Assembly: GCF_003369835.1 (NCBI RefSeq)
Contig: NZ_QPMJ01000004.1
Location: 124,001 to 188,000, forward strand
Source of the DNA: Halorussus rarus
GTDB taxonomy: Archaea > Halobacteriota > Halobacteria > Halobacteriales > Haladaptataceae
DNA length: 64,000 bases
Reading direction: 5' to 3'
A model generated the notes under the pieces. The model saw nothing but the letters and a program-made list of their open reading frames with translations, was not told where the DNA came from and did not search any database. How positions within the stretch are numbered: position 1 is the first letter of the stretch; each line of letters begins with the position of its first letter. A program made the position numbers and the translations under genes. Shown one piece after another: positions 22,516-50,080 of this stretch.

Positions 22516-24324
22516 ATGGTAGCTGCTGGGGAACTCGTACTGACTGCGGTGATGGGGGTACTCCTGGTCGCGGTCGCGGCCTACATCCTGAACATCGAGG
22601 ACTGGCGGTCGTACACGCCGCTGTCCGGCGGGGGTACCGGAGGCGGCTACGGCGAGCGCTCGGAGGCCGCCCACGAGGAGAAACCGGGCGGGTTGACCAG
22701 GTGGCTGACCACGGTCGACCACAAGGACATCGGCATCCTCTACGGTATCTTCGGCCTCACCGCGTTCGCGTGGGGCGGCATCGCCGTGCTGCTGATGCGG
22801 ACCGAGCTGCTGACGCCGGACTCGGCGATAATGGGGGCGAACTTCTACAACTCGCTGCTGACCTCCCACGGCATCACGATGCTGTTCCTGTTCGGGACGC
22901 CGATACTGTCGGCGTTCGGGAACTACTTCATCCCCCTGCTCATCGGCGCCGACGACATGGCGTTCCCCCGGATCAACGCCATCGCGTTCTGGCTCCTCCC
23001 GCCGGGCGCGCTGCTCATCTGGGCCGGGTTCTTCTTCGCGCCGATCGCCAGCATCGCCATCGAGCCCGCTCAGACCGCGTGGACGATGTACACGCCGCTG
23101 TCGGTCGAGCAGACCAACCCCGGCGTCGACCTGATGCTGCTCGGACTCCACCTGACCGGCGTGTCGGCGACGATGGGAGCGATCAACTTCATCGCGACAA
23201 TCTTCACCGAGCGCGGCGAGGACGTGGGCTGGGAGAACCTCGACATCTTCTCGTGGACGATGATCACCCAGTCGGGGCTCATCCTGTTCTCGTTCCCGCT
23301 GCTGGGCAGCGCGCTCGTGATGCTGCTGATGGACCGGAACCTCGGCACCACGTTCTTCGCAACCGAGGGCGGCGGCCCCATCCTGTGGCAGCACCTGTTC
23401 TGGTTCTTCGGCCACCCCGAAGTGTACATCCTGGTGCTGCCGCCGATGGGGCTCGTGAGCCTGATTCTCCCGAGATTCGCTGGCCGGAAGCTGTTCGGGT
23501 TCAAGTTCGTCGTCTACTCGACGCTGGCCATCGGCGTGCTGTCGTTCGGCGTCTGGGCCCACCACATGTTCGCCGTCGGGATGGACCCCCGGATTCGCGG
23601 GAGCTTCATGGCGGTGTCGCTGGCCATCGCGGTGCCGAGCGCGGTCAAGACCTTCAACTGGATCACCACCATGTGGAACGGGAAGCTCCGCATGACCGCG
23701 CCGATGCTGTTCTCCATCGGGTTCGTCCAGAACTTCATCATCGGCGGGGTGACCGGCGTCTTCCTCGCGTCGGTCCCGGTCGACCTCATCCTCCACGACA
23801 CCTACTACGTGGTCGGACACTTCCACTTCATCGTGATGGGCGCCATCGCGGTCGCCGGCTTCGCGGGCATCTACTACTGGTTCCCGATGTTCACCGGTCG
23901 GATGTACCAGCAGACCCTCGCGAAGTGGCACTTCTGGACCACCATGATCGGGAGCAACGTCACGTTCTTCGCGCTGCTCATCCTGGGCTACGGCGGGATG
24001 CCCCGGCGCTACGCCACCTACCTGCCGCAGTTCGCCGACCTCCACATCATCGCGTCGGCGGGCGCGTTCATCATGGGCTTCGGCCAGCTCATCTTCGTCT
24101 GGAACATCGTCACCTCCTGGATGGAGGGCCGCCGGGTCGAGTCCGGCGACCCGTGGAACCTCGAGGAGGACGGGCTCAAGACCAAGGACTGGGCGTGGTT
24201 CGAGCGCAAGCGCGAGACCGCTATCACCGACGGCGGGGAGGAAACCGTCGCCGACGGCGGCGAGAAAACTGCCACCGACGGCGGCGAGCCGACCGACGCT
24301 GACGAATCTTCGACCGACGACTGA
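22516..24324 (+). CDS. Heme-copper oxidase subunit I, stand-alone gene (first copy)
   Basis: A 602-residue A-family subunit I. All metal ligands are visible: low-spin heme His in S-H-G-I-T-M, CuB/heme motif G-H-P-E-V-Y (with the cross-linking Tyr and the D-channel Glu), W-A-H-H-M-F and V-G-H-F-H-F. The D-channel entry is in G-A-D-D-M-A-F-P-R-I-N and the K-channel Lys in V-P-S-A-V-K-T-F-N-W. The N-terminus adds one extra helix ending in E-D-W-R-S-Y-T-P-L, and the C-terminus has an acidic T-D-G-G-E repeat tail. It reduces O2 and pumps protons in the cytoplasmic membrane. No subunit II or III is adjacent. A TATA-like TTTCTTAACG lies about 30 nt before the ATG. Confidence 0.92.
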   Translation: MVAAGELVLTAVMGVLLVAVAAYILNIEDWRSYTPLSGGGTGGGYGERSEAAHEEKPGGLTRWLTTVDHKDIGILYGIFGLTAFAWGGIAVLLMRTELLTPDSAIMGANFYNSLLTSHGITMLFLFGTPILSAFGNYFIPLLIGADDMAFPRINAIAFWLLPPGALLIWAGFFFAPIASIAIEPAQTAWTMYTPLSVEQTNPGVDLMLLGLHLTGVSATMGAINFIATIFTERGEDVGWENLDIFSWTMITQSGLILFSFPLLGSALVMLLMDRNLGTTFFATEGGGPILWQHLFWFFGHPEVYILVLPPMGLVSLILPRFAGRKLFGFKFVVYSTLAIGVLSFGVWAHHMFAVGMDPRIRGSFMAVSLAIAVPSAVKTFNWITTMWNGKLRMTAPMLFSIGFVQNFIIGGVTGVFLASVPVDLILHDTYYVVGHFHFIVMGAIAVAGFAGIYYWFPMFTGRMYQQTLAKWHFWTTMIGSNVTFFALLILGYGGMPRRYATYLPQFADLHIIASAGAFIMGFGQLIFVWNIVTSWMEGRRVESGDPWNLEEDGLKTKDWAWFERKRETAITDGGEETVADGGEKTATDGGEPTDADESSTDD

Positions 24325-36447: not shown

Positions 36448-37509
36448 ATGCGCCGCGCGACACTTGCGGTCGCCACGCTGCTCGCGGTCGCCGCGGTTTC
36501 GCCGACCCTCGGGAACGCCGTTCAGGATTCAGGAGACCCCGAGCGAATCGACTCCTGCACCACCATCGACGACCCCGGCCGGTACGCGCTGGTCGACGAC
36601 GTCCGGAACGCCTCGGCCGGCCAGTGTATCCGCATCCGGGCGAGCGACGTCGTGCTCGATGGCCGGGGCCACCTCGTCGACGGCCGAGGCTCCTTCGGCA
36701 CCGCCGGAGTCGCGGTCGGCGCGTGGGCCCGCCCCGTCTCGAACGTCACCGTCCGGAACCTGACGGTGGCCGACTGGGACGACGGGGTCCGGCTGACCGA
36801 AGCCGACCGCGGCGCGTTTCTCGACGTCACCGCGATCAGAAGCAGGGTCGGGGTTCGGCTCTACTCGTCGAGCCGGAACCGACTCGCGGACGTGCGCGCG
36901 AGCGACAACGCGGTCCACGGGCTCTCGCTGCTGGACGACAGCGACGGGAACCGCGCATCGAACGTCACCGCCGCCGGCAACGCGCTGTTCGGCGTCCACC
37001 TCGGCGCCGACTCCTCCGGGAACCGGGTCGAGAACGCGATCGCCCGCGCCAACGAGTACGGCGTCGTGGCGGTCGGCGCCGACGGGAACCATATCGTCGG
37101 CGGCCGCGCGACCGGGAATCGAATCGCTGGCGTGTGGCTCTCTGCCGCCGACGATACCCGGGTCGCGGACCTCCGGCTCTCCAACCGGTTCTACGGGGTC
37201 TTCGTCGCCGACGGTTCGACGAACAACTCGCTGGCGGGGAACCGCGCCGTCGACAGCGCGGTCGGATTCCGCCTCCGGAACGCCGACGGGAACCGCCTCC
37301 GGGACAACCGGGCGTCGGGCAACCGCGACGGCGTCCTGCTCGTCGAGAGCGACCGGAACGCGGTGGTCGACAACCGCATCACCGACAACCGGCGGGGCGT
37401 CTCGCTGCTGGCCGCCGACGACAACCGCTTCCGCGGGAACGCCGTGCGCGACAACCGCCGGAACTTCGTGGTGGCCCGCGGGAGCGAGAACAACAGCGTG
37501 CCGGCGTGA
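36448..37509 (+). CDS. Secreted NosD-like parallel beta-helix protein, long
   Basis: A 353-residue protein with a signal peptide (residues 1-26) and a mature region that begins D-S-C-T-T-I-D-D-P-G-R-Y-A-L. It continues as a right-handed beta-helix of about thirteen coils, each with the pattern N-x-x-x-x-N-x-A-x-x-x-x-x-G-V-x-L (PbH1/NosD). Function is unknown; such folds often bind or process carbohydrates or copper, but no catalytic residues are visible. It lies 81 nt after the helicase gene on the same strand. See 33192-33776 for the shorter paralogue. Confidence 0.82.
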   Translation: MRRATLAVATLLAVAAVSPTLGNAVQDSGDPERIDSCTTIDDPGRYALVDDVRNASAGQCIRIRASDVVLDGRGHLVDGRGSFGTAGVAVGAWARPVSNVTVRNLTVADWDDGVRLTEADRGAFLDVTAIRSRVGVRLYSSSRNRLADVRASDNAVHGLSLLDDSDGNRASNVTAAGNALFGVHLGADSSGNRVENAIARANEYGVVAVGADGNHIVGGRATGNRIAGVWLSAADDTRVADLRLSNRFYGVFVADGSTNNSLAGNRAVDSAVGFRLRNADGNRLRDNRASGNRDGVLLVESDRNAVVDNRITDNRRGVSLLAADDNRFRGNAVRDNRRNFVVARGSENNSVPA

Positions 37510-37773
37510 AAACCGGACCTCTGTGGGAGCGCTTTCTCACCCGAAGCTACTTCGGCGCGCGCTGGCGGACCCTCGTGGTCCGTCACGCCGTGCGAGGGAC
37601 GAGGAGCGCAGGCCTTTGGCCGAGCACCGCAGGAGGCTGGGGAGGCGTGAGGCGGTTGCGGGGCGGTGCTGTGCGGGACATCTGTGACGGCAGTAGCTAG
37701 CTTCTCCTGTCCTATCCTCGGTATCGGTCTGTCCCGTACCAGACCATCAACCGACCGATTTCCCCGAACTCGA

Positions 37774-37782
37774 CATTTAAGT
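37774..37782 (+). promoter_or_regulatory. TATA-like box before the tRNA-binding domain gene
   Basis: CATTTAAGT lies 26-34 nt before the ATG at 37808, the leaderless-promoter spacing. The rest of the 298-nt gap 37510-37807 is GC-rich; no gene is recognised in it. Confidence 0.5.
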
Positions 37783-37807
37783 CGACCGCCGTACAACCCC
37801 GACCCGC

Positions 37808-38131
37808 ATGACCGAGAGCCCGTTCGACACCACCTTCCGCGTCGGCGAGGTGCTCGACGCCGAGTCGTTCCCCGAGACGAACAAGCCGGAGATGGCCATC
37901 CTGCAGATCGACCTGGGCGACGAGGAGGTCCAGTCGGTGGCCCAGACCGGGTACAACTACGACCCCGACGACCTCGTGGGCCGGCAGGTGCTCTGCGCGA
38001 CGGACCTCGGCTCGGTCCGCATCGCGGGCGAGAAGAGCGAGGCGCTGACGGTCGGCGTCCCCGACGAGGAGGGCCACCCGGTGCTGGTCGGCCCCGACGA
38101 GGACGTGCCGCTCGGCGGCGAACTGTACTGA
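37808..38131 (+). CDS. CsaA-like tRNA-binding OB-fold protein
   Basis: A 107-residue protein that consists of a single tRNA-binding domain (EMAP/Trbp111/CsaA type): F-R-V-G-E-V-L-D-A-E-S-F-P-E-T-N-K-P, then the dimer-core strand and V-G-R-Q-V-L-C-A-T-D-L, ending with V-P-L-G-G-E-L-Y. Members bind RNA or act as chaperones in protein export; the precise role in archaea is unknown. It is short but complete for CsaA. It stands alone between a NosD-like gene and the convergent glycoside hydrolase gene. Confidence 0.85.
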   Translation: MTESPFDTTFRVGEVLDAESFPETNKPEMAILQIDLGDEEVQSVAQTGYNYDPDDLVGRQVLCATDLGSVRIAGEKSEALTVGVPDEEGHPVLVGPDEDVPLGGELY

Positions 38132-38180
38132 CCCGGCCGTCGGGAGTCCCGGTCTTCGACCGTCGGCGTGTCCCGTCGGA

Positions 38181-39425
38181 CTACTCCCCCGCTTCCGAGC
38201 CGCTCCCGAAGGCGTGGCGCTTGATCTTCGTCGCCCACTGGGGCCACTCCTGACGCTGTTCGAGCTCGGAGACGTCGTCCTCGCCCGACATCGCCTTGAT
38301 GGCCCTCGCGTCGCTCTTGTGCCAGACCGAGCCGTCCTCGTGGAATAGCCCGTTGATGATGCCGCGCTTGCGCATATACCGGACGTAGGCGGGTTTGACC
38401 ATCAGCGACCAGAAGAAGTTGCCCACGCCGTGCTGGTGGATGACCGGCGCGAGCGAGTCGTAGTCGGGCTGCCAGTTGTCGACGACCCCGGTCTCGCCCC
38501 AGCCGAAGTTCGCGACCTTCTGCCACTCGCTCAGGTACACCGGCATGTCGAGGTCCTCGCCGAGCCGAATCGCCTCCGGAAGCAGCTCGTGGTACATGTC
38601 GGGTTCGTTCGGGAAGTTGTAGTGGAACTGGAGCACGTCGGCGCCCCAGTCGACGTAGTCGGCGTTGTTGGCCAGGCTGGTCGACCCGACGGTCAGCGGG
38701 ACCGACCCGCGGTTCTCGGCCATGGTCTCGAACATGCCGGCGGCGAACCGCTTCATCGTCGGGAGCCACCCCGGTTCGTTCATCGCCTCGATGGCAAGCA
38801 GCCGGTCGTCGTCCTTCCACCGGTCCATGAACCACCGGACGTACCCTCCGGGTTCGTCCCACCGGTCGGGGTTCTGCATGACGTCGCTCGACGGCGACTG
38901 GACCGGCGGCGCGGTCAGCGGGTCGGTGGCGTGGAGGTTCTCCTCGGACGGCTCCTTGCCCACGCTCTCGAACAGGCCGAACAGCACCTCCATTCCGCGG
39001 TCGTCGGCCGCGGTCAGGAAGTGCTCGATGGACCGCTCGAGCGCCTCGGCGTCGGCGAGCCACTGCTCGTAGCTGATCCACGTCCGGATGGCGTTGATGT
39101 TCACCCGGTCGGCGTACCCCAGGTCGCGCTCGATGACGCTCTCGTCGTAGTCGTGCCACATCTGGAACGTGTTCCACGCGCGTGCGGGGACGTACAGCGC
39201 GCCCCGGACGTCGATCGGTTCGGCGTCGGCCTGCGCCGGCTCCTCGGTCGTCGTCGCCTCGGTCGTCGGGTCGGGGGTCGCGGAGGTCGGCGTGCCGCTG
39301 GCCCCGCTCCCGGTGTCGTTGCGCCGCCGCCGACTCCCGAAGGGGGCGGCGCAGCCCGCCGTACCGAAGAGTCCGACCGACGCGCTGGCCCCCAGAAACT
39401 GCCGACGAGTCTGCCGACTGGTCAT
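38181..39425 (-). CDS. Tat-exported lipoprotein glycoside hydrolase (GH5-like, cellulase/mannanase clan)
   Basis: A 414-residue enzyme. The N-terminus has R-R-Q-F-L-G-A-S-A-S-V-G-L-F-G-T-A-G-C, a twin-arginine motif plus lipobox, so it is a surface-anchored Tat lipoprotein with a Thr-rich linker. The TIM-barrel domain carries A-M-N-E-P-G (acid/base Glu, E217) and V-Y-L-S-E-W-Q (nucleophile Glu, E300), the two catalytic carboxylates of clan GH-A/GH5. It probably hydrolyses a beta-glucan or mannan outside the cell. The ATG at 39425 is chosen for the Tat signal; upstream codons look non-coding. Confidence 0.8.
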   Translation of the reverse strand: MTSRQTRRQFLGASASVGLFGTAGCAAPFGSRRRRNDTGSGASGTPTSATPDPTTEATTTEEPAQADAEPIDVRGALYVPARAWNTFQMWHDYDESVIERDLGYADRVNINAIRTWISYEQWLADAEALERSIEHFLTAADDRGMEVLFGLFESVGKEPSEENLHATDPLTAPPVQSPSSDVMQNPDRWDEPGGYVRWFMDRWKDDDRLLAIEAMNEPGWLPTMKRFAAGMFETMAENRGSVPLTVGSTSLANNADYVDWGADVLQFHYNFPNEPDMYHELLPEAIRLGEDLDMPVYLSEWQKVANFGWGETGVVDNWQPDYDSLAPVIHQHGVGNFFWSLMVKPAYVRYMRKRGIINGLFHEDGSVWHKSDARAIKAMSGEDDVSELEQRQEWPQWATKIKRHAFGSGSEAGE

Positions 39426-39676
39426 TGGAACCCGCCACGGGACCGCCGGGTGTAAAAGTGTCCTTACGTTGCGCCGGAGGGTCCCGGTTACACGCCGCAT
39501 AACGAGGAGTTTCCGGGCACGTCGGCCGCCGGTCGCCGGGTTCAAATCCACCTCGGAGAATCGTCGTGTCGCGCGGGCGCCCGACACATCGGGGCGCCGA
39601 CAGCGTCTCGAATCGCGGTCGCGTCGGTCGGTTCCGTTCGATGCGGCTTCAGTCGGTCCCTCCGCCCGATGCCGGA

Positions 39677-39958
39677 TTATCGCGTCCCTCGGAGGACGAT
39701 CTCGGCGTCGCACTCGGGACAGGCGCCGCGGTCGGCGTCGAACTCGGTCTCGCAGAACGGGCAGACGTGGGCGTCGTCTCGATCGGCGTCGCTCGACGCC
39801 GAGTCGTCGTCCGTCGACTCCTCGCCGTCGGACGCGGCGTCGGTCGCCGAGTCGCGGTCGGTCGACGGCCTGGAGTCGGTCTCCGCTCCCGGCTCGTCGT
39901 CGGTTAGCGTGGCGTCCTCTCCCCCTCGCAGTCCGCGCGTGATGTCTTTCAGGTCCAT
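39677..39958 (-). CDS. Small acidic zinc-ribbon protein
   Basis: A 93-residue protein. After an N-terminal M-D-L-K-D-I-T-R-G-L-R-G-G it has a very acidic Asp/Ser-rich linker and a C-terminal zinc ribbon C-P-F-C-E-T-E-F-D-A-D-R-G-A-C-P-E-C. An alternative ATG at 39988 would add ten residues. The composition is typical of haloarchaeal zinc-ribbon proteins of unknown role. It stands between the glycoside hydrolase and a small membrane protein, all on the minus strand. Confidence 0.7.
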   Translation of the reverse strand: MDLKDITRGLRGGEDATLTDDEPGAETDSRPSTDRDSATDAASDGEESTDDDSASSDADRDDAHVCPFCETEFDADRGACPECDAEIVLRGTR

Positions 39959-40139
39959 GCCATCGGGTCCTCTGGGCTCCGTTTCCATTGTTATGGCGGG
40001 CCTTCCCGGCCGTAAGGACCGCCTATCGGCTGCGAACGCGGGAAGGGGCCGTCGATTCCGGCCCAAAGGCGCCGCCGTGCCGAAGGGTCCGAGCGCGCCA
40101 ACGCCGAGCCTCCGCCCGTCGCAGGGGTCGAGGACCGCC

Positions 40140-40466
40140 TCACGCGAGGCGGTCGAGCCCCCGGAGGGTGGCCCGGGCCGCGGCCAGCGCCACCAGGGGC
40201 AGCGCGGCGACCGCGCCGACCACCGTGGCGGTGGCGCCGAGCAGGGCGGGCAGGCCGAGGAGGGCCGACGGGCCAGCGGGCAGGTTCGTCACGACGACGC
40301 CGAGCAGTACCGCGGCGGCCGCGGTGCCGACTGCGAAGGCGGCGGCCGCTGCGACCAGGACGGCCGCCCGCTCGGCGGACCGGCCGGTCGCGGCGAGCGC
40401 TCGCGCGGCGGCGTCTCGCAGCGTCGTTCTCGTGGGCAGTTCGGTCGTGTGCAGCGTGTGTCGCAT
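40140..40466 (-). CDS. Small membrane protein of unknown function
   Basis: A 108-residue protein with an Arg/Thr-rich start (T-L-R-D-A-A-A-R-A-L-A-A-T-G-R-S-A-E-R) and two strongly hydrophobic, Ala-rich segments (about residues 34-62 and 68-98). It has no recognisable motifs. Codon third positions are GC-rich as in its neighbours. It is followed at 40582 by another small gene on the same strand upstream of it, so the two may be co-expressed. Confidence 0.6.
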   Translation of the reverse strand: MRHTLHTTELPTRTTLRDAAARALAATGRSAERAAVLVAAAAAFAVGTAAAAVLLGVVVTNLPAGPSALLGLPALLGATATVVGAVAALPLVALAAARATLRGLDRLA

Positions 40467-40581
40467 CGGTCTGAGTCGAGTCGAATCGGTTCGGTGAGCG
40501 AGTGGTGCGTCGGGTCCGCGCGGCGCGCCGGAGCGTCGACGATAGCGTCGGCGTCGGCCGGACTCCGGTCCCGGTCGGCGG

Positions 40582-40887
40582 TCACGCCGAGCGGTCGGTC
40601 TCGACGGCGGTGACGGCCCGGACGCCGAACTGGTCGGCGACCGTCTCCCGGACCGCGGCCCGCTCGTCCTCGACCGAGTCGTCCAGCCGGACGTGGAGCC
40701 GGACCGAGGCGTCGACCCGGAGGTCGTTGAGCGTCGGGGTGACCCCCGAGATGTCGACGACCTCCGTGCGGTCGACCGCGGCGCTCCGGGCCAGGACGTC
40801 GGCGATGCCGTCCTGGAGGGTGCCGTCGCCGCCGCGGGGGACGTGTACTTCGAGGTCTGCCGTCGCGTCGATTGTCGGGTCGGTCAT
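40582..40887 (-). CDS. Small acidic protein of unknown function
   Basis: A 101-residue soluble acidic protein with alternating short strands and helices (L-E-V-H-V-P-R-G-G-D-G-T-L ... V-R-L-H-V-R-L-D-D-S-V-E). No family recognised. It starts at the ATG 40887 and is followed, after 115 nt, by the small membrane-protein gene at 40140-40466. The halophile-like composition supports a real gene. Confidence 0.58.
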   Translation of the reverse strand: MTDPTIDATADLEVHVPRGGDGTLQDGIADVLARSAAVDRTEVVDISGVTPTLNDLRVDASVRLHVRLDDSVEDERAAVRETVADQFGVRAVTAVETDRSA

Positions 40888-41294
40888 GGGTCGTGTCGTT
40901 GGTGTGGTCGGTGTGGCGTTCGGCGGGTCGGTGCGATCAGGGTCGTCGGGTGCGTGCTGGGCCGGTCACGGATTTCGGGTGCGTCGGTCGCAGTGCGTTG
41001 TTCGTCGGTGCGGTCGGGTCGCGTCGATGCGGTCGCGGTCGGTGCCTCCCGGCGAGCTCTCGCCCGCGGCCGCCGGCGGCGGCGCCGTCGGGAGCGCAGA
41101 TGCGTCTGGTCGATGGGTGGCCGACTCGCGACGGCGAGTCGCGGTACCGGGTCGGTGCGCCGGAGAAGGACGTGGCCGAACGGACCACGCGCCCGACGCA
41201 CGCGGCTCGCTTCCGAGTCGTGGGTTCGGGAGGAAGCGAGCCGACCCGGCGTCGCGTTGCCGACGGAACCGTTCCGTCGGCGGCCGCGGACGCC
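40888..41294. other. 407-nt region without recognised gene; three strong hairpins in its right half
   Basis: The left half is a G/T-biased stretch rich in GGTCGG and GTGTGGTCGG-like runs, with no convincing frame. The right half holds three perfect inverted repeats (listed separately). The region lies between a small acidic-protein gene and a possible 57-residue gene. Confidence 0.5.
41122..41280. repeat. Cluster of three perfect inverted repeats
   Basis: Arms are CGACTCGC/GCGAGTCG (41122-41141, 4-nt loop), CGGCTCGCTTCC/GGAAGCGAGCCG (41203-41243, 17-nt loop) and CCGACGGAAC/GTTCCGTCGG (41260-41280, 1-nt centre). All are perfect. The last lies 15 nt past the stop of the small minus-strand gene at 41295 and could end its transcript. 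Confidence 0.82.
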
Positions 41295-41647: not shown

Positions 41648-42082
41648 ATGGCCGAAACTGCCTACCTGACGAGCGCCCTCGCGACCGGCGCCGTGCTGCT
41701 CGCGGTCTGGGCGTTCGTCGGCAGGATGGAGAACTGGCGAAGCTACGACCCCGCGGACGGGACGGCGCGCGACCTGCCGCGGTCGGCGGACGCGAGCGAG
41801 TCGGTCGGGACCTGGATCGCCGGGTTCTTCGCGCTGGTCCTGGTCGCCGGCGGCGGCGCGGTGCTGCTCGTCAGCGACGCCGGCTTCGCGGCCGCCGTCG
41901 GCAGCTGGACGGCCATCGCGCTGGTGTTCGCCGTCCTGCTCGTCGGGTTCCTGCTCTGGGGAACCTACAGCTCCGCGCGGTTCCGCGGGCTGGCGAGCGC
42001 GCAGGCGGCGCTCCTGAGCCTGTGGGTGTTCGGCTCGCTGTTCGTGGCCGGCGTCACCGTCAAACTCGTCCTCGGTGGGTGA
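41648..42082 (+). CDS. Membrane protein of the oxidase region with a subunit I-like N-terminal module
   Basis: A 144-residue protein with four hydrophobic segments. Its start, one helix followed by R-M-E-N-W-R-S-Y-D-P-A-D-G, is strikingly like the starts of both stand-alone oxidase subunit I proteins (E-D-W-R-S-Y-T-P-L and E-D-W-H-S-Y-A-P-A). The remaining three helices (about 57-78, 84-105 and 114-140) have no metal ligands. It may be an accessory or structural oxidase subunit. The stop overlaps the GTG start of the next gene. Transcription is governed by the inverted repeat at 41611-41629. Confidence 0.72.
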   Translation: MAETAYLTSALATGAVLLAVWAFVGRMENWRSYDPADGTARDLPRSADASESVGTWIAGFFALVLVAGGGAVLLVSDAGFAAAVGSWTAIALVFAVLLVGFLLWGTYSSARFRGLASAQAALLSLWVFGSLFVAGVTVKLVLGG

Positions 42083-43749: not shown

Positions 43750-44013
43750 TCAGAGTATCGAGTAGGCTGCCGCGGTCGTCAGCGCCAGCGCCGCTAACAG
43801 GCCGACGAACATCGTGAACGATACCGACCGGGGCTCCCACTTGAGGTGCTGGTAGTACCACGCGACCATCACCGCCTTCACGAACGACAGCGCGATGATG
43901 ACCCAGAACGCGGTCCAGTACGGCAGGCCGCCCGACTGTTCGACGAGCAGCTGGACGGTCGCGAAGGCGAACAGTACGACGTATATCGCGGTGTAGAGTT
44001 TGAGTCGTGTCAT
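43750..44013 (-). CDS. Cytochrome oxidase subunit IV-type small membrane protein
   Basis: An 87-residue protein with three hydrophobic segments. The pattern L-Y-T-A-I-Y-V-V-L-F-A-F-A-T-V-Q, then V-K-A-V-M-V-A-W-Y-Y-Q-H-L-K-W-E, is the prokaryotic CtaF/CyoD-like subunit IV signature. It starts 2 nt after the stop of the I+III fusion gene and is the last gene of the operon subunit II - I+III - IV. It probably stabilises the oxidase. Confidence 0.85.
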   Translation of the reverse strand: MTRLKLYTAIYVVLFAFATVQLLVEQSGGLPYWTAFWVIIALSFVKAVMVAWYYQHLKWEPRSVSFTMFVGLLAALALTTAAAYSIL

Positions 44014-44015
44014 GG

Positions 44016-46607
44016 TCACAGGATGTAGAACAGCGGGAACAGGAACAGCCACACGATGTCCACGAAGTGCCAGTACAGCCCGAAGTACTCGACCGGCCGG
44101 TCGTCGTCGAGGTACGCGCCGTTCCACGCCCGCACCAGGAGGTAGAGCGTGACCACCAGCCCCGCGATGACGTGGAGCCCGTGCAACCCGGTGGTCAGGT
44201 AGAACGTCGACGAGGCCACGTTCGTGCCGATGTCCCAGCCCTGCGGGAACGCCTCGGTGTGGACGTGGAACAGGTGGAGCCACTCCAGAGCCTTGTTGAC
44301 GAGGAACGCGACCCCGAGCACGAACGTCGTCGCCAGCGACGCGACGAGTCCGAGTCGGCTCCCCTTCTCGGCGGCCACCAGCGCGAGAACGACCGTGAAA
44401 CTGCTCGTCAGCAGGATGTAGGTGTTGATGAGCCCCGGCAGCGGGACGTGGGCCGCGGGAATCAGGTGGTGCCAGTCGGTCCACCCCTCTGCGACCCGGA
44501 TGAAGGCGTACGAGCCGATGAACGCCCCGAACAGCACCACGTCGCTGGCCAGGAACAGCCACATGCCGAGCTTGGTGTTCTCGACGGCCTCGAACGGCCA
44601 GCTCTCGCCGAACGGCTCGGTCAGCCCGTGGAACTCCTCGCCGGCCATCCGGACCAGGGTCCACAGGAGCGCAAGCAGGCCGCCGACCGTCAGCGCGAGG
44701 TAGCCCGCGCCTTCGAGCCCGGCGGGATAGCTCGCGTCCTGCATCCCCGACATGCCGAGCAGCAGCACGAACGACGCGATTCCGATGGCGAACGGCCAGA
44801 TGCTGGCGTGGCTCTCGGACTCGGACTCCTCGCCCGCGACCGCGGCGGCCTCGACGTCGGCCTCGATCGCTCCGCCGTCGGAGGCGGTCCGCGGGTCGGG
44901 GTCGCCGGGCTCGCGCTCTCCTCCGTTCGCGACGCCCGCGCCCGGCCGGAACTCGAGCGACCCGCTGGAGAACGACGGCCGGCCGGGGAAGTTCTCCAGC
45001 GGCGGCGGCGAGGGGACGGCCCACTCGGTCGTGGTCGAGTACCGCCAGGGGTTGTCGCCGGCCTCCTCGCCCGACCACAGGCTGACCGCGAGGTTGTAGA
45101 ACATCACCAGGAACGACGCGCCGAGGACGAACCCGCCCACGGTCGCCAGCTGGTGCAGGCCGACGAACGCCTCGGGGTAGACGAAGTCCCGGCGGGGCGT
45201 CTCCCACGCGATGAACATCGGGAAGTACAGGAGATTGAAGCCGACGAAGTACAGCGCGAAGTGGACCTTCCCGAGGAACTCGTCGTACATCTTCCCGGTC
45301 ATCTTCGGGTACCAGTAGTAGAGACCCCCGACGAGCGCGGTGACCCCGCCCACCATCACGTAGTGGAAGTGGGCGACGACCCAGTAGGTGCCGCGGAACT
45401 CGTAGTCGAGCACGACCGCACCGAGGAACACGCCCGTGATGCCCCCGAGGATGAACAGGATGAGCGCGCCGAACGAGAACAGGAACGGCGTGGTGAACCG
45501 GACCTTCCCCTTGACGGTGGTGTAGATGAGCGCGAACACCATCAGGTCGAACGGCAGCGAGATGCCGATGGTGGTCGCCATGAACAGCGTCTTGATCTGG
45601 AGGTTGATGCTGGTCAGGAACATGTGGTGCATCCAGACCAGGAAGCTCTGGAGCGCGACCAGCACCATCGCGGCGATGAACCACTTCCGGCCGACGAGCC
45701 GCCGTCCGGTGAACGTCTGGAAGCACTCGGCCATCACGCCGAGCGCCGGGAAGAAGACGATGTACACCTCGGGGTGGCCGAAGAACCAGAACAGGTGGGC
45801 CCACAGCAGCGACCCGGCGTGACCCGTGGCCGCGAAGTACTGGGTGCCCAGCAGGCGGTCGGCCGACAGTATCATCAGCGCCGCCAGCAGCGCCGCGAAC
45901 GCGAACAGCATCATCCAGGTCGTCAGCAGGATGGTCCACGTGAACAGCGGCATCCGCCGGAGGGTCAGCCCCTCGGCGCGCATCCGGTGCATCGTCGTCA
46001 GGAAGTTCACCGACCCGACGGTCACCGAGGCGGTGAACATCAGGAGCGCCAGCACCGCGGTGCTCGCGCCGATGTTCGGGGTGTACACCGGGAGGTTCAG
46101 CGGCGCGTACATCGTCCAGCCCCCCGCGAAGGTGCTGCCCTGGAAGAACGAGACGCCAAGCAGGACGCCCGAGAACAGGTAGAGCCAGTACGACAGCGCG
46201 TTCAGCCGCGGGAACGCGAGGTCCTTCGCACCGATCTGGAGCGGGACCACGTAGTTGGCGAACCCGAACGCGAACGGCGAGAGGAACCAGAAGATCATGA
46301 TGAGGCCGTGGGCCGAGACGGCCTGGTTGTACTGGAGCGGTTCGAGCAGGCCCGCGCCCGGCGTCCAGAGCTGGAGCCGCATCAACAGTGCGAGCACGCC
46401 GCCGAACACCAGGAAGAACAGCGCCGTGACGGTGTAGAGCACGCCGACGTCCTTGTGGTTGGTCGTGACCAGCCACCGCTTGACGCTGCCGGGGTCGGGC
46501 AGGTCGTGGTGGTGGTCGGCGCCGTGGGACGCGTCGGCGTAGCCGCCGTCCGACGCCGCGCCGCCGTCGGCTGGCGCGCCACCGTCGCGTACGTCCTCGT
46601 CGCTCAT
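44016..46607 (-). CDS. Heme-copper oxidase subunit I+III fusion with altered K-channel residues
   Basis: An 863-residue fusion. Residues about 45-545 are subunit I with heme ligand S-A-H-G-L-I-M, G-H-P-E-V-Y (E280), W-M-H-H-M-F and V-A-H-F-H-Y. Residues 600-863 are a complete subunit III (M-W-L-F-L-A-S-D-V-V-L-F through Y-W-H-F-V-D-I-V-W-L-F). The D-channel Asp is kept in G-A-K-D-L-A-F-P-R-L-N. At the K-channel, canonical V-P-T-G-x-K-x-F aligns with L-P-F-D-L-M-V-F: Thr becomes F353 and Lys becomes M356. It is in an operon with subunits II (4-nt overlap) and IV. It reduces O2; how it takes up K-channel protons is open. Confidence 0.9.
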   Translation of the reverse strand: MSDEDVRDGGAPADGGAASDGGYADASHGADHHHDLPDPGSVKRWLVTTNHKDVGVLYTVTALFFLVFGGVLALLMRLQLWTPGAGLLEPLQYNQAVSAHGLIMIFWFLSPFAFGFANYVVPLQIGAKDLAFPRLNALSYWLYLFSGVLLGVSFFQGSTFAGGWTMYAPLNLPVYTPNIGASTAVLALLMFTASVTVGSVNFLTTMHRMRAEGLTLRRMPLFTWTILLTTWMMLFAFAALLAALMILSADRLLGTQYFAATGHAGSLLWAHLFWFFGHPEVYIVFFPALGVMAECFQTFTGRRLVGRKWFIAAMVLVALQSFLVWMHHMFLTSINLQIKTLFMATTIGISLPFDLMVFALIYTTVKGKVRFTTPFLFSFGALILFILGGITGVFLGAVVLDYEFRGTYWVVAHFHYVMVGGVTALVGGLYYWYPKMTGKMYDEFLGKVHFALYFVGFNLLYFPMFIAWETPRRDFVYPEAFVGLHQLATVGGFVLGASFLVMFYNLAVSLWSGEEAGDNPWRYSTTTEWAVPSPPPLENFPGRPSFSSGSLEFRPGAGVANGGEREPGDPDPRTASDGGAIEADVEAAAVAGEESESESHASIWPFAIGIASFVLLLGMSGMQDASYPAGLEGAGYLALTVGGLLALLWTLVRMAGEEFHGLTEPFGESWPFEAVENTKLGMWLFLASDVVLFGAFIGSYAFIRVAEGWTDWHHLIPAAHVPLPGLINTYILLTSSFTVVLALVAAEKGSRLGLVASLATTFVLGVAFLVNKALEWLHLFHVHTEAFPQGWDIGTNVASSTFYLTTGLHGLHVIAGLVVTLYLLVRAWNGAYLDDDRPVEYFGLYWHFVDIVWLFLFPLFYIL

Positions 46608-47410
46608 GCGACCACCCGCTGCGGATTCGCTACCTGCCCGGTCCGGGCGCTACCCGCGACTGACGGCGCGTCGAGCGCGGAACTGTTCGACGACGACTCG
46701 TTCTGGCTCGTGGTGTTCGCGTACCAGGACTCGTACTCGTCGGGCTCCATCACCACGACCTCGGCGGTCATGTACGAGTGGCCCCGGCCGCAGAGCTCGA
46801 AGCACCGGGCCTCGTAGGTCCCGGTCTCGTTCGTCTCGAGCCAGGTGTCGGTCCGCTGACCCGGAATCGCGTCGGTCTTCACTCGCAACCCGGGCACCCC
46901 GAACGTGTGGAACACGTCGTCGGAGGTGACGTTGAGACGGACCGTCTCGCCCGCGGGTACGCGCAACGTGCTGGCGGTGTGGCCGTTGGGGTAGACGAAC
47001 TCCCAGCCGAACCGGAAGCCGACCACCTCGACCTCGAGTCCCCGCTCGCCCTCGCCGGGCGAGTCGGCCTCCACGTACAGCAGCGTCCCGTAGGTCCACG
47101 CGATGAGCGAGACCACGATCACCGTGCTGAGGCCGAACGAGACGAACAGCTTCCGCCCGCCACCGCCGCCGGACGGCAGTTCGCCCAGATCGGGAACGTC
47201 GTCGTCGACCGACCGGCCGTCTCCGTCGCGGTACTTGTAGGCGTTGTACACCATGTAGCCGATGACGACGACGCCGACGAGCGTCCCCAGAACCAGGAAC
47301 ACCGTGAATATTCGTTGGAACACCTCTACTCTCGTCCCCTTCGGGATTATCCCGGACTGGGCCGGGAAGGCGCGAACGGCGACGAGTAACGCTCCGGCCA
47401 ACTGAACCAT
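46604..47410 (-). CDS. Cytochrome oxidase subunit II with CuA site
   Basis: A 268-residue protein with an N-terminal export-like helix, two membrane helices (about residues 30-56 and 84-108) and a C-terminal cupredoxin domain. The CuA ligands are present: V-F-H-T-F-G-V-P and C-F-E-L-C-G-R-G-H-S-Y-M. It accepts electrons from a soluble or membrane-bound donor (halocyanin or cytochrome c type) and passes them to subunit I. The ATG at 47410 begins the operon; its stop overlaps the next ATG. The C-terminal Ser/Asn tail is unusual but common in halophile surface domains. Confidence 0.9.
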   Translation of the reverse strand: MVQLAGALLVAVRAFPAQSGIIPKGTRVEVFQRIFTVFLVLGTLVGVVVIGYMVYNAYKYRDGDGRSVDDDVPDLGELPSGGGGGRKLFVSFGLSTVIVVSLIAWTYGTLLYVEADSPGEGERGLEVEVVGFRFGWEFVYPNGHTASTLRVPAGETVRLNVTSDDVFHTFGVPGLRVKTDAIPGQRTDTWLETNETGTYEARCFELCGRGHSYMTAEVVVMEPDEYESWYANTTSQNESSSNSSALDAPSVAGSARTGQVANPQRVVA

Positions 47411-47505
47411 GGGTGGTGATAACACGCTTCATATACTTATTGGTTCCCCACTATTTTATGTTACATAGAGCAACGCTTATCCCTTGGTGTGTGGTAACTA
47501 CAGAC
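47411..47505. promoter_or_regulatory. Divergent AT-rich promoter region between the cox operon and a membrane-protein gene
   Basis: A 95-nt spacer. CATATACTTATT (about 47430-47441) fits a TATA element for the minus-strand cox operon, and CTATTTTATG (about 47452-47461) or GCTTATCCC (about 47475-47483) for the plus-strand gene. Shared regulation is likely given the distance. Confidence 0.5.
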
Positions 47506-48036
47506 ATGGATGGGGAGGAGACCGAGTTCACGACGGAACTGCCCGGCGAGTCGACCGAGACCGCGGAACCGGACTTCGACCACCTCTGGGGTATCATCAC
47601 CGACGGGTTCATCGGCGCGGTCGGGGGCCTGGTCGGGACCGGGTCGCTGACGGTGGGTCTGCTCATCGCCGCCTCGCTCGGCGCGTTCGACATCAACGAG
47701 TTCGCCACCCTCGCCGAACTCACCGGCCTCGACGCCCTGTTCGCGGCGAACCCGCCCGCGGTCGGCTACGTGCTGTTCCTGCTGACCGGGATGGTGATGT
47801 GGCCGCTGCTGTTCGCGTCCATCGGGTCGTACCTGCCGGGCGACCGGTACGCGATAAAGGGCCTCCCGTTCGGGTTCGTGCTCTGGACCGGGTTCGCACC
47901 CGCGTTCTACGTCGACTACACCGGGCTGACGATGGCGTTGTACCTGGTGCTGACGCTCGGTGCGCACTTCTCGTACGGGTTCACGCTCGGGGCGGTGTTC
48001 GACTACCTCGGCGACAGGCCCGAGACGCTGGTGTAG
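47506..48036 (+). CDS. Membrane protein divergent from the cox operon (DUF6789-like)
   Basis: A 176-residue protein with an acidic cytoplasmic start (M-D-G-E-E-T-E-F-T-T-E-L-P-G-E) and four hydrophobic segments. G-V-x-G-x-x-G-T-like glycine spacing in the first helix (F-I-G-A-V-G-G-L-V-G-T-G-S) is a feature of a family that I recall next to haloarchaeal oxidase genes. No metal ligands. The role is unknown, possibly oxidase assembly. It is transcribed divergently from the subunit II gene out of a shared 95-nt promoter region. Confidence 0.75.
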   Translation: MDGEETEFTTELPGESTETAEPDFDHLWGIITDGFIGAVGGLVGTGSLTVGLLIAASLGAFDINEFATLAELTGLDALFAANPPAVGYVLFLLTGMVMWPLLFASIGSYLPGDRYAIKGLPFGFVLWTGFAPAFYVDYTGLTMALYLVLTLGAHFSYGFTLGAVFDYLGDRPETLV

Positions 48037-48340: not shown

Positions 48341-50080
48341 CTACTCCTCCTCGCCCGATTCGCCGCCGTCCGCGAGCGCGGTCTCGACCTTCCGCTCGAA
48401 CCACGCCCACTCCTTGGTTTTGAGGCCGTCCTCCTCGAGGCTCCACGGGTCGGGGTCCTCGACCCGCGGCCCCTCCAGCCACGACTGGACCACGTTCCAG
48501 AGGAAGACGAGCTGGCCGAGCGCGAGCAGGTACACGCCGAGCGTCGCGACCTGGTGGAGGTCCGCGAAGTAGGCGGCCGGGCCGACCGTCAGGTCGTAGC
48601 CCGCGTACCGGCGGGGCATGCCGCCGTAGCCCAGCAGGATCATCGGGAAGAAGGTGACGTTGGTGCCGACCATCGACAGCCAGAAGTGCCACTTCGCCAG
48701 CGTCCGCTGGTACCACCGGCCGGTGTAGAGCGGGAACCAGTAGTAGACGGCGGCGAACACCGCGAACGCGATGCCGCCCATGATGACGTAGTGGAAGTGC
48801 GCGACGACGTGGTACGTGTCGTGGAGCACGAGGTCGACCGGAATCGCCGCCTCGAACACGCCGGTCACGCCGCCGACGATGAAGTTCGCCACGAAGCCGA
48901 CGCAGAACAGCATCGGCGCGGTGAGCCGGACGCGTCCGTTCCACATGGTGGTGATCCAGTTGAAGGTCTTGACCGCGCTCGGCACCGCGATGGCGATGGA
49001 GACCGCCATGAAGCTGGCCCGGACTCGCGGGTCGATGCCCGTCGCGAACATGTGGTGGGCCCAGACGCCGAACGAGAGCACGCCCAGCGCGAGCGTCGAG
49101 TAGACGACGAACTTGAACCCGAACAGCTTCCGACCAGCGAATCGCGGGAGAATCAGGCTCACGAGCCCCATCGGCGGCAGCACCAGGATGTACACCTCGG
49201 GGTGGCCGAAGAACCAGAACAGGTGCTGCCACAGCAGCGGACCGCCGCCTTCGACGGCGAAGAAGGCGGTTCCGAAATTCCTGTCCAGCAGCAGCATCAC
49301 GAGCGCGCTGCCCAGCAGCGGGAACGAGAACAGGATCTGGCCAGACTGGACCAGCACGGTCCAGGAGAACAGGTCGAGGTTCTCCCAGCCGACGTCCTCG
49401 CCGCGCTCGGCGATGATGGTCGCGATGAAGTTGATCGCCCCCATCGTCGCCGACACGCCCGAGAGATGCAACCCGAGCAGCATCAGGTCGACGCCGGGAT
49501 TGGCCTGCTCGACGGAGAGCGGCGGGTACATCGTCCACGCGGTCTGGGCGCCCGAGACGTCGCCGACGAACGGCCCCAGCAGGACGCCGCCCCAGATGAG
49601 CAGGGCCGCGGGCGGGAGGAGCCAGAACGCAATGGCGTTGATCCGGGGGAACGCCATGTCGTCGGCGCCGATCAGCAGCGGAATGAGGTAGTTCGAGATC
49701 GACGCCAGTATCGGCGTCCCGAACAGGAACAGCATCGTGATGCCGTGGGTGGTCATCAGCGCGTTGTAAAAGTTCGCTCCCAGCAGGTCGACCGGCGGGG
49801 TCACGAGTTCGGTCCGCATCAGCAGGACGGCGATGCCGCCCCACGCGAACGAGACGAGCGCGAAGACCCCGTAGAGCAGGCCGACGTCCTTGTGGTCGAC
49901 CGTGGTCAGCCACCGAATCAGTCCCGAGGGTTTCTCCGTCAGCGTCCCGGTCGCCTCCGCGCCGGACTGGCCGCCGGCCGGCGCGTAGGAGTGCCAATCC
50001 TCCAGCCTCGCGACCCACCAGCCGACCCCGACCAGCAGGAGGCCCATCGCCACTGCGAGGGTCGGTCGAAGCGCTACCAT
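48341..50080 (-). CDS. Heme-copper oxidase subunit I, stand-alone gene (second copy)
   Basis: A 579-residue A-family subunit I, a close paralogue of the protein at 22516-24324. Ligands and channel residues are intact: T-H-G-I-T-M, G-A-D-D-M-A-F-P-R-I-N, G-H-P-E-V-Y, W-A-H-H-M-F, V-P-S-A-V-K-T-F and V-A-H-F-H-Y. The N-terminal helix ends L-E-D-W-H-S-Y-A-P. The C-terminus has the same L-E-E-D-G-L-K-T-K-E-W-A-W-F-E-R-K as its paralogue, a feature not found in the I+III fusion. The ATG at 50080 aligns with the start of the paralogue; one nine bases upstream is also possible. No subunit II of its own is near, but the subunit II gene is 1 kb away. Confidence 0.92.
   Translation of the reverse strand: MVALRPTLAVAMGLLLVGVGWWVARLEDWHSYAPAGGQSGAEATGTLTEKPSGLIRWLTTVDHKDVGLLYGVFALVSFAWGGIAVLLMRTELVTPPVDLLGANFYNALMTTHGITMLFLFGTPILASISNYLIPLLIGADDMAFPRINAIAFWLLPPAALLIWGGVLLGPFVGDVSGAQTAWTMYPPLSVEQANPGVDLMLLGLHLSGVSATMGAINFIATIIAERGEDVGWENLDLFSWTVLVQSGQILFSFPLLGSALVMLLLDRNFGTAFFAVEGGGPLLWQHLFWFFGHPEVYILVLPPMGLVSLILPRFAGRKLFGFKFVVYSTLALGVLSFGVWAHHMFATGIDPRVRASFMAVSIAIAVPSAVKTFNWITTMWNGRVRLTAPMLFCVGFVANFIVGGVTGVFEAAIPVDLVLHDTYHVVAHFHYVIMGGIAFAVFAAVYYWFPLYTGRWYQRTLAKWHFWLSMVGTNVTFFPMILLGYGGMPRRYAGYDLTVGPAAYFADLHQVATLGVYLLALGQLVFLWNVVQSWLEGPRVEDPDPWSLEEDGLKTKEWAWFERKVETALADGGESGEEE

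Follow-up and report, generated by a model that had tools for sequence, protein, structure and literature searches.

The window, the whole stretch of 64,000 nucleotides from Halorussus rarus, harbors several genes of terminal oxidases and, near to them, a gene for a small membrane protein starting at position 41648 (Table 1). The motif ENWRSYDP is located at residues 28-35 of this protein, directly after one hydrophobic helix. A preliminary description of the DNA had depicted the protein as an N-terminal module followed by three further helices and lacking the catalytic domain of oxidase subunit I. This picture is borne out, since four helices are predicted in total and a profile scan gave no match to the catalytic domain of COX1 (PF00115). 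The curated cut-offs of Pfam and NCBIfam were not reached either, and a single-sequence search against the PDB returned no match. A low-confidence AlphaFold2 model based on a 3-sequence alignment displays four helices (pLDDT 57.6), but both this model and the one obtained for the stand-alone subunit I at 48341 from 4 sequences (pLDDT 33.8) were unusable.

Table 1. Coordinates of the small membrane protein, its neighbors and the oxidase genes within the window.
Feature	Position	Strand	Remarks
Second stand-alone subunit I, with module	22516..24324	+	COX1 protein
N-terminal module of the 22516 subunit I, IEDWRSYTP	22516..22632	+	
Small membrane protein, 144 aa	41648..42082	+	four predicted helices, 0 His, 0 Cys
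Shared N-terminal module, residues 1-38: helix and ENWRSYDP	41648..41761	+	
DUF7410 zinc finger and one helix	42085..42372	+	GTG start 2 bases past the stop of 41648
Oxidase subunit IV	43750..44013	-	assigned to COX4_pro via a same-cluster relative; convergent with 41648
Fused subunits I and III, CoxAC, core of the most likely partner oxidase	44016..46607	-	no helix ahead of the first COX1 helix
Subunit II, CoxB	46604..47410	-	reads C-x3-C-x3-H
DUF6789 membrane protein, recurrent operon neighbor	47413..48036	+	open frame as listed; true start may be later
Stand-alone subunit I, module in cis	48341..50080	-	COX1 protein
N-terminal module of the 48341 subunit I, LEDWHSYAP	49967..50080	-	

Terminal oxidases are called highly diverse in haloarchaea, and coxA1, coxAC2 and cbaA are given as those of Haloferax volcanii, in the available part of PMC8305020; the stand-alone subunit I of the window is perhaps a candidate for the coxA1 type named there. 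Whether an extra helix (TM0) precedes the first COX1 helix was assessed in a cluster of 50 COX1 proteins, from which the 7 without an anchor match were left out. No helix is found before the anchor in 34 of the remaining 43 (hydropathy maximum <= 0.25, or too short), in contrast to the other nine, which do carry one (hydropathy maximum >= 1.72). These nine are of stand-alone size, one of them being cut by the locus end, and eight of the nine display W..Y. None of the CoxAC proteins inspected has this helix, and the CoxAC oxidase is thus considered to be devoid of TM0.

The preliminary description had further claimed that the module is common to the proteins at 41648, 22516 and 48341, which the motif scan, the profile comparisons and a decoy test confirm. 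EDWRSYTP in 22516 and EDWHSYAP in 48341, the latter on the minus strand, each follow one hydrophobic helix, and a six-frame scan of the window with the pattern E[DN]W[RH]SY.P gave three matches, solely in these three proteins, with none in 100 residue shuffles. When 41648 was searched against its own genome by tblastn, the next matches after itself fell on three frames of 596-603 codons, at their N-termini and with E values of 0.21-0.96 that are insignificant singly; two of these frames lie in the window. The link becomes significant through the profile comparisons. Aligned by hhalign at full length, the family alignment matches the stand-alone subunit I with a Prob of 96.3 (P 1.6e-9), compared with a Prob below 2 for each of seven further membrane families encoded at these loci. 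With split alignments, residues 1-38 reach a Prob of 98.8 against subunit I (P 6e-17) and helices 2-4 a Prob of 0.1 against COX1. A first impression that helix 2 resembles COX1 helix I was gone once the parts were compared separately.

For the decoy test, Halorussus was taken out of both sides, and 799 decoys were obtained from 841 called neighborhood proteins by removing 42 that had been matched earlier (34 family members and 8 COX1 proteins). Here, the N-terminal profile retrieved 21 of 21 subunit I N-termini by hmmsearch at E 2.5e-12 to 7.7e-9 with the best decoy at 0.29; the full-length profile gave E 2.2e-9 to 3.6e-7 for the same 21 and 0.0024 for the best decoy. By sequence comparison, about 38 residues are thus homologous between 41648 and the stand-alone subunit I, comprising the helix and E[DN]W[RH]SYxP. 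Beyond them the two proteins differ, as the COX1 domain is present in subunit I and helices 2-4 of 41648 match nothing in it.

A profile search with the module, as suggested in the preliminary description, was run in 40 relatives and yielded 80 matches at E <= 3.5e-8, followed below a gap by 18 weaker ones at E 0.0027-0.092. Assigned by frame length rather than by translation one by one, 57 of the strong matches lie in frames as long as a subunit I (581-687 codons) and 22 in shorter ones of 150-416 codons, consistent with the small family; the remaining match is in a broken subunit I frame of 312 codons. Since the profile was built from both kinds of protein, only the lack of strong matches elsewhere is informative; among the strong matches in these 40 relatives, the module was not seen to be widespread in unrelated membrane proteins. 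In one Halorussus genome (G374, locus L133), the gene of a module-bearing subunit I is apparently split into two reading frames, and this genome revealed neither a clear family gene nor a gene for the CoxAC subunit IV.

The 41648 protein is the first member of an undescribed haloarchaeal family. This family was followed within Halobacteria and, beyond them, in the profile libraries, in the PDB, on named plasmids and in a pattern-based scan of genome contigs, the latter returning two Halorussus loci only. The family gene is annotated as "hypothetical protein" in all eight named plasmid records found, and among the titles and abstract starts of the open-access literature no paper about the family was found. 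Compared with Pfam and NCBIfam, the 32 aligned members gave no match below E 0.01 with the exception of one, which weakly matches Pfam Cyt_c_ox_IV (PF12270) at E 0.0016; 41648 itself shows no such match. Five divergent members, searched against Pfam only, reached no curated cut-off, and an RDD identity for one divergent member (E 0.0065, below the cut-off) was set aside. No His or Cys column is conserved in 90% of the 32 members. The W..Y.P part is not universal, as the W is present in 26 and the Y in 22 of the 32 sequences, and it is absent from the members of two loci (L071 and L072).

To see which oxidase the family accompanies, 391 haloarchaeal genomes were surveyed with three profiles, representing the family, the module of subunit I together with its linker, and the subunit IV of the CoxB-CoxAC operon, which serves as marker for this oxidase. 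The family was detected in 186 genomes (E < 1e-12, a cut-off placed once the E values had been seen to leave a gap from 9.3e-13 to 2.2e-8), the module-bearing subunit I in 229 (E <= 1e-8) and subunit IV in 276 (E <= 1e-6). The genome, genus and coordinate lists used for the co-occurrence, genus and linkage tests were transcribed by hand. Family and subunit IV occur together in 185 genomes, the family alone in one, subunit IV alone in 91 and neither in 114 (Fisher p 5e-40); the sole family genome without subunit IV (G377) is an assembly in 360 contigs. In contrast, no significant association was seen between the family and the module-bearing subunit I: the two coincide in 113 genomes, 73 have just the family, 116 just this subunit I and 89 neither of them (p 0.41; 0.13 without 8 weak matches to subunit I). 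Within the 18 genera that are polymorphic for the family, genomes without a genus label being left out, its presence agrees with that of subunit IV in 190 of 194 genomes (CMH p 1e-21). Repeated for the module-bearing subunit I, the test gave p 0.64 but had little power, since this protein varies within only one of the 18 genera. Within Halorussus, subunit IV and the family are present in the same 15 of 18 genomes (family E <= 5.5e-27).

Weak matches to the family profile were obtained in 113 further genomes, of which 104 carry a module-bearing subunit I and the other nine all carry subunit IV. No clear family member is present in 91 of the 276 subunit IV genomes (nine of the 91 with weak profile matches), and 20 loci fetched from subunit IV genomes without a detected member revealed no clear divergent member near subunit IV. 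Owing to these 91 genomes, the family is not regarded as essential everywhere.

It had been proposed that 41648 looks like an accessory part of the stand-alone oxidases, and a constant co-occurrence of its homologues with them had been suggested as a check. The constant co-occurrence fails, since 73 of 186 family genomes lack a module-bearing subunit I. An accessory role for an oxidase is retained; what has to be replaced is the partner, as the family follows CoxAC in 185 of 186 genomes. The family travels with the fused CoxAC oxidase, and its partner is most likely a different oxidase from the one originally named. One genus (g24) is instructive, in which six genomes contain the family without a module-bearing subunit I, and the two members inspected (L027 and L035) have kept W-x-x-Y-T-P. 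This pattern is a better fit to a helix acting in trans on CoxAC than to a contact between two module-bearing proteins.

The gene order points in the same direction. Coordinates of both genes were taken in 114 of the 186 family genomes, rows lacking one of the two being left out, and in all 114 the family gene and the subunit IV gene are found on one contig, at a distance of at most 5 kb in 108 and of 29-161 kb in three. The two genes are convergent in 106 of the 114, and therefore no co-transcription with subunit IV takes place there. Two loci (L058 and L062) display the tandem order coxB, coxAC, subunit IV, family gene, and in three others (L070, L071 and L077) the family gene lies head-to-head beside coxB; because of these arrangements, the linkage to the CoxAC operon is seen to survive rearrangement. 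The joint loss of the family and subunit IV may partly reflect this physical linkage. On two named plasmids, the neighborhood includes subunit IV, coxB and a subunit I gene annotated as cbb3-type. At 8 of the 42 loci, the family gene was not picked up by the gene caller. As a side observation, the block at 36448-41200 of the window that adjoins 41648 encodes a NosD-like protein, a tRNA-binding protein, a Tat-type protein and small unknown proteins, and the same block is found again next to the family gene at several loci of Halorussus.

Taken together, 41648 may be a small accessory subunit, or a long-bound assembly partner, of the A-type CoxB-CoxAC-subunit IV oxidase, a reading to which we give about an even chance. 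Its first helix and the W..Y.P segment correspond by homology to the extra N-terminal helix TM0 of the stand-alone subunit I. Since CoxAC has no TM0, such a helix would be provided in trans by the small protein and would lie against the first helices of CoxAC, with the three other helices anchoring the protein in the membrane at the periphery of the complex. Judged from the positions of its Arg residues, the end of the module and the Arg-rich loop would face the cytoplasm. We infer a physical binding of 41648 to CoxAC, and a docking site as well as an effect on the activity or stability of CoxAC are presumed along with it.

A different reading would have 41648 act as an assembly factor only, which holds the newly made CoxAC during insertion of heme and copper by its operon partners and then leaves. 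The genes downstream are of interest here. In the window, the DUF7410 gene is a probable operon partner of 41648, and its zinc finger is C2H2-like and joined to a membrane helix. Across 34 loci, the co-directional next gene encodes a membrane protein of about 490 aa with conserved His (nine loci), DUF7546 (six) or DUF7410 (six), and these 21 cases look like a biogenesis cassette; that the family gene is mostly convergent with the oxidase genes also fits. In the other 13 loci, none of the three is the co-directional next gene, which speaks against this view. The protein of about 490 aa is present in 20 of 42 loci (e.g., L061, L063 and L068) and contains four invariant His (HxxH and HxxxxxxxH); one member gave no Pfam match and another no PDB match, and it is possibly a heme or copper factor of oxidase biogenesis. 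DUF7546, a membrane protein of the same neighborhood (e.g., L065 and L066), has a CxxC that is invariant in 13 of 13 aligned members. Metal chaperones of the CtaG, Cox11 and Sco types are marked by conserved His or Cys ligands. In contrast to these, 41648 itself has no His and no Cys and none is conserved in its family, a finding that argues against its having a metal or heme function. Furthermore, a helix that the other oxidase retains in cis is in keeping with a permanent structural position. A role in assembly only is therefore considered rather unlikely, but it has to be weighed seriously.

Improbable is the partnership that was originally suggested, in which 41648 serves as accessory or docking part of the oxidases with a stand-alone subunit I. 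The module common to both proteins speaks for it, as does a module-bearing subunit I in the fetched neighborhood of 8 of 42 loci (the window, L005, L006, L077, L079, L080, L081 and L094), a count that one would expect if the suggestion were partly right or if oxidase genes cluster. It is countered by the lack of a significant association across genomes, by the 73 family genomes devoid of such a subunit I and, with its little power, by the test within genera. In addition, the module-bearing subunit I already has its own TM0.

Very improbable, in our judgment, is a bridging function, by which 41648 would connect the CoxAC oxidase to another respiratory complex in the manner of actinobacterial supernumerary subunits. 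It is suggested by the best PDB match of the family profile, chain J of 7qhm (E 0.0018), a hypothetical membrane protein in a supercomplex entry of C. glutamicum, and by the single member that resembles Cyt_c_ox_IV. These two matches are weak, though, and located in hydrophobic stretches, and two members searched singly gave no such PDB match. The available part of PMC8795186 names supernumerary subunits but not chain J, and the match to this chain is treated as no more than a lead. Finally, a convergent or compositional origin of the module, conceivable since the common part spans only about 38 mostly hydrophobic residues, is strongly disfavoured and appears most improbable by sequence comparison, as the decoy test without Halorussus separates 21 of 21 subunit I N-termini from 799 decoys and frames of other sizes in 40 genomes hold no strong match bar one broken subunit I.

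Returning to 41648 as a partner of CoxAC, small proteins associated with other oxidases can be compared. Subunit IV of the COX4_pro family (PF03626) is likewise a small membrane protein encoded with the same oxidase, but it shares no profile-profile similarity with 41648 (hhalign Prob 0.3 or less). For this reason, COX4_pro was rejected as a relative of helices 2-4, an idea that had come from several subunit IV proteins among the top hmmsearch matches at E 3e-4 to 0.08. Another case is subunit IIa of B-type oxidases, a helix that, depending on the oxidase, is either fused or forms a small subunit by itself, haloarchaea included, as stated in the available part of PMC3128077. Like the module, it is one helix that is either fused or separate; unlike 41648 with its four predicted helices and a module related to subunit I, it is a single helix equivalent to a helix of subunit II. 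A comparison of the family with CoxB by hhalign gave a Prob of 1.95.

Aligned to aa3-600, the 48341 protein carries Trp, Ala, Phe and Ala at four positions that are occupied in aa3-600 by Arg, Asp, His and Glu, all four of which we take to be quinol-site residues. For the bo3 quinol oxidase, Arg71 and Asp75 are named as quinone contacts, and TM0 is stated to occur only in quinol oxidases, in the available part of PMC9731990. The extra N-terminal helix of 48341, which is devoid of the aa3-600 quinol-site residues, runs counter to this statement. According to the same source, the pocket beside TM1-3 of subunit I is lined by TM0 in the bo3 oxidase and covered by COX7C in the mitochondrial oxidase. 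The haloarchaeal pair resembles the TM0 of the bo3 and aa3-600 quinol oxidases and COX7C (PMC9731990, available part) in that a helix by TM1-3 would be part of subunit I or belong to a separate subunit. No sequence match was found between the haloarchaeal module and a solved TM0; among the PDB matches listed, all begin at position 46 of the module profile or later, which is behind the helix and the motif. It is a tentative and somewhat doubtful extension of our reading that the TM0 pocket of haloarchaea, beside TM1-3 of subunit I, is filled either in cis by the extra helix of the stand-alone subunit I or in trans by the four-helix protein on CoxAC.

If true, this would represent an independent archaeal counterpart of the relation between the TM0 of quinol oxidases and mitochondrial COX7C. 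A TM0 in enzymes without the canonical quinol residues would then point to sealing or regulation rather than to quinol binding. The family is a probable added subunit of a widespread haloarchaeal oxidase, and together with the stand-alone subunit I it forms a natural cis/trans pair in which the role of an extra TM0 outside quinol oxidases can be addressed.
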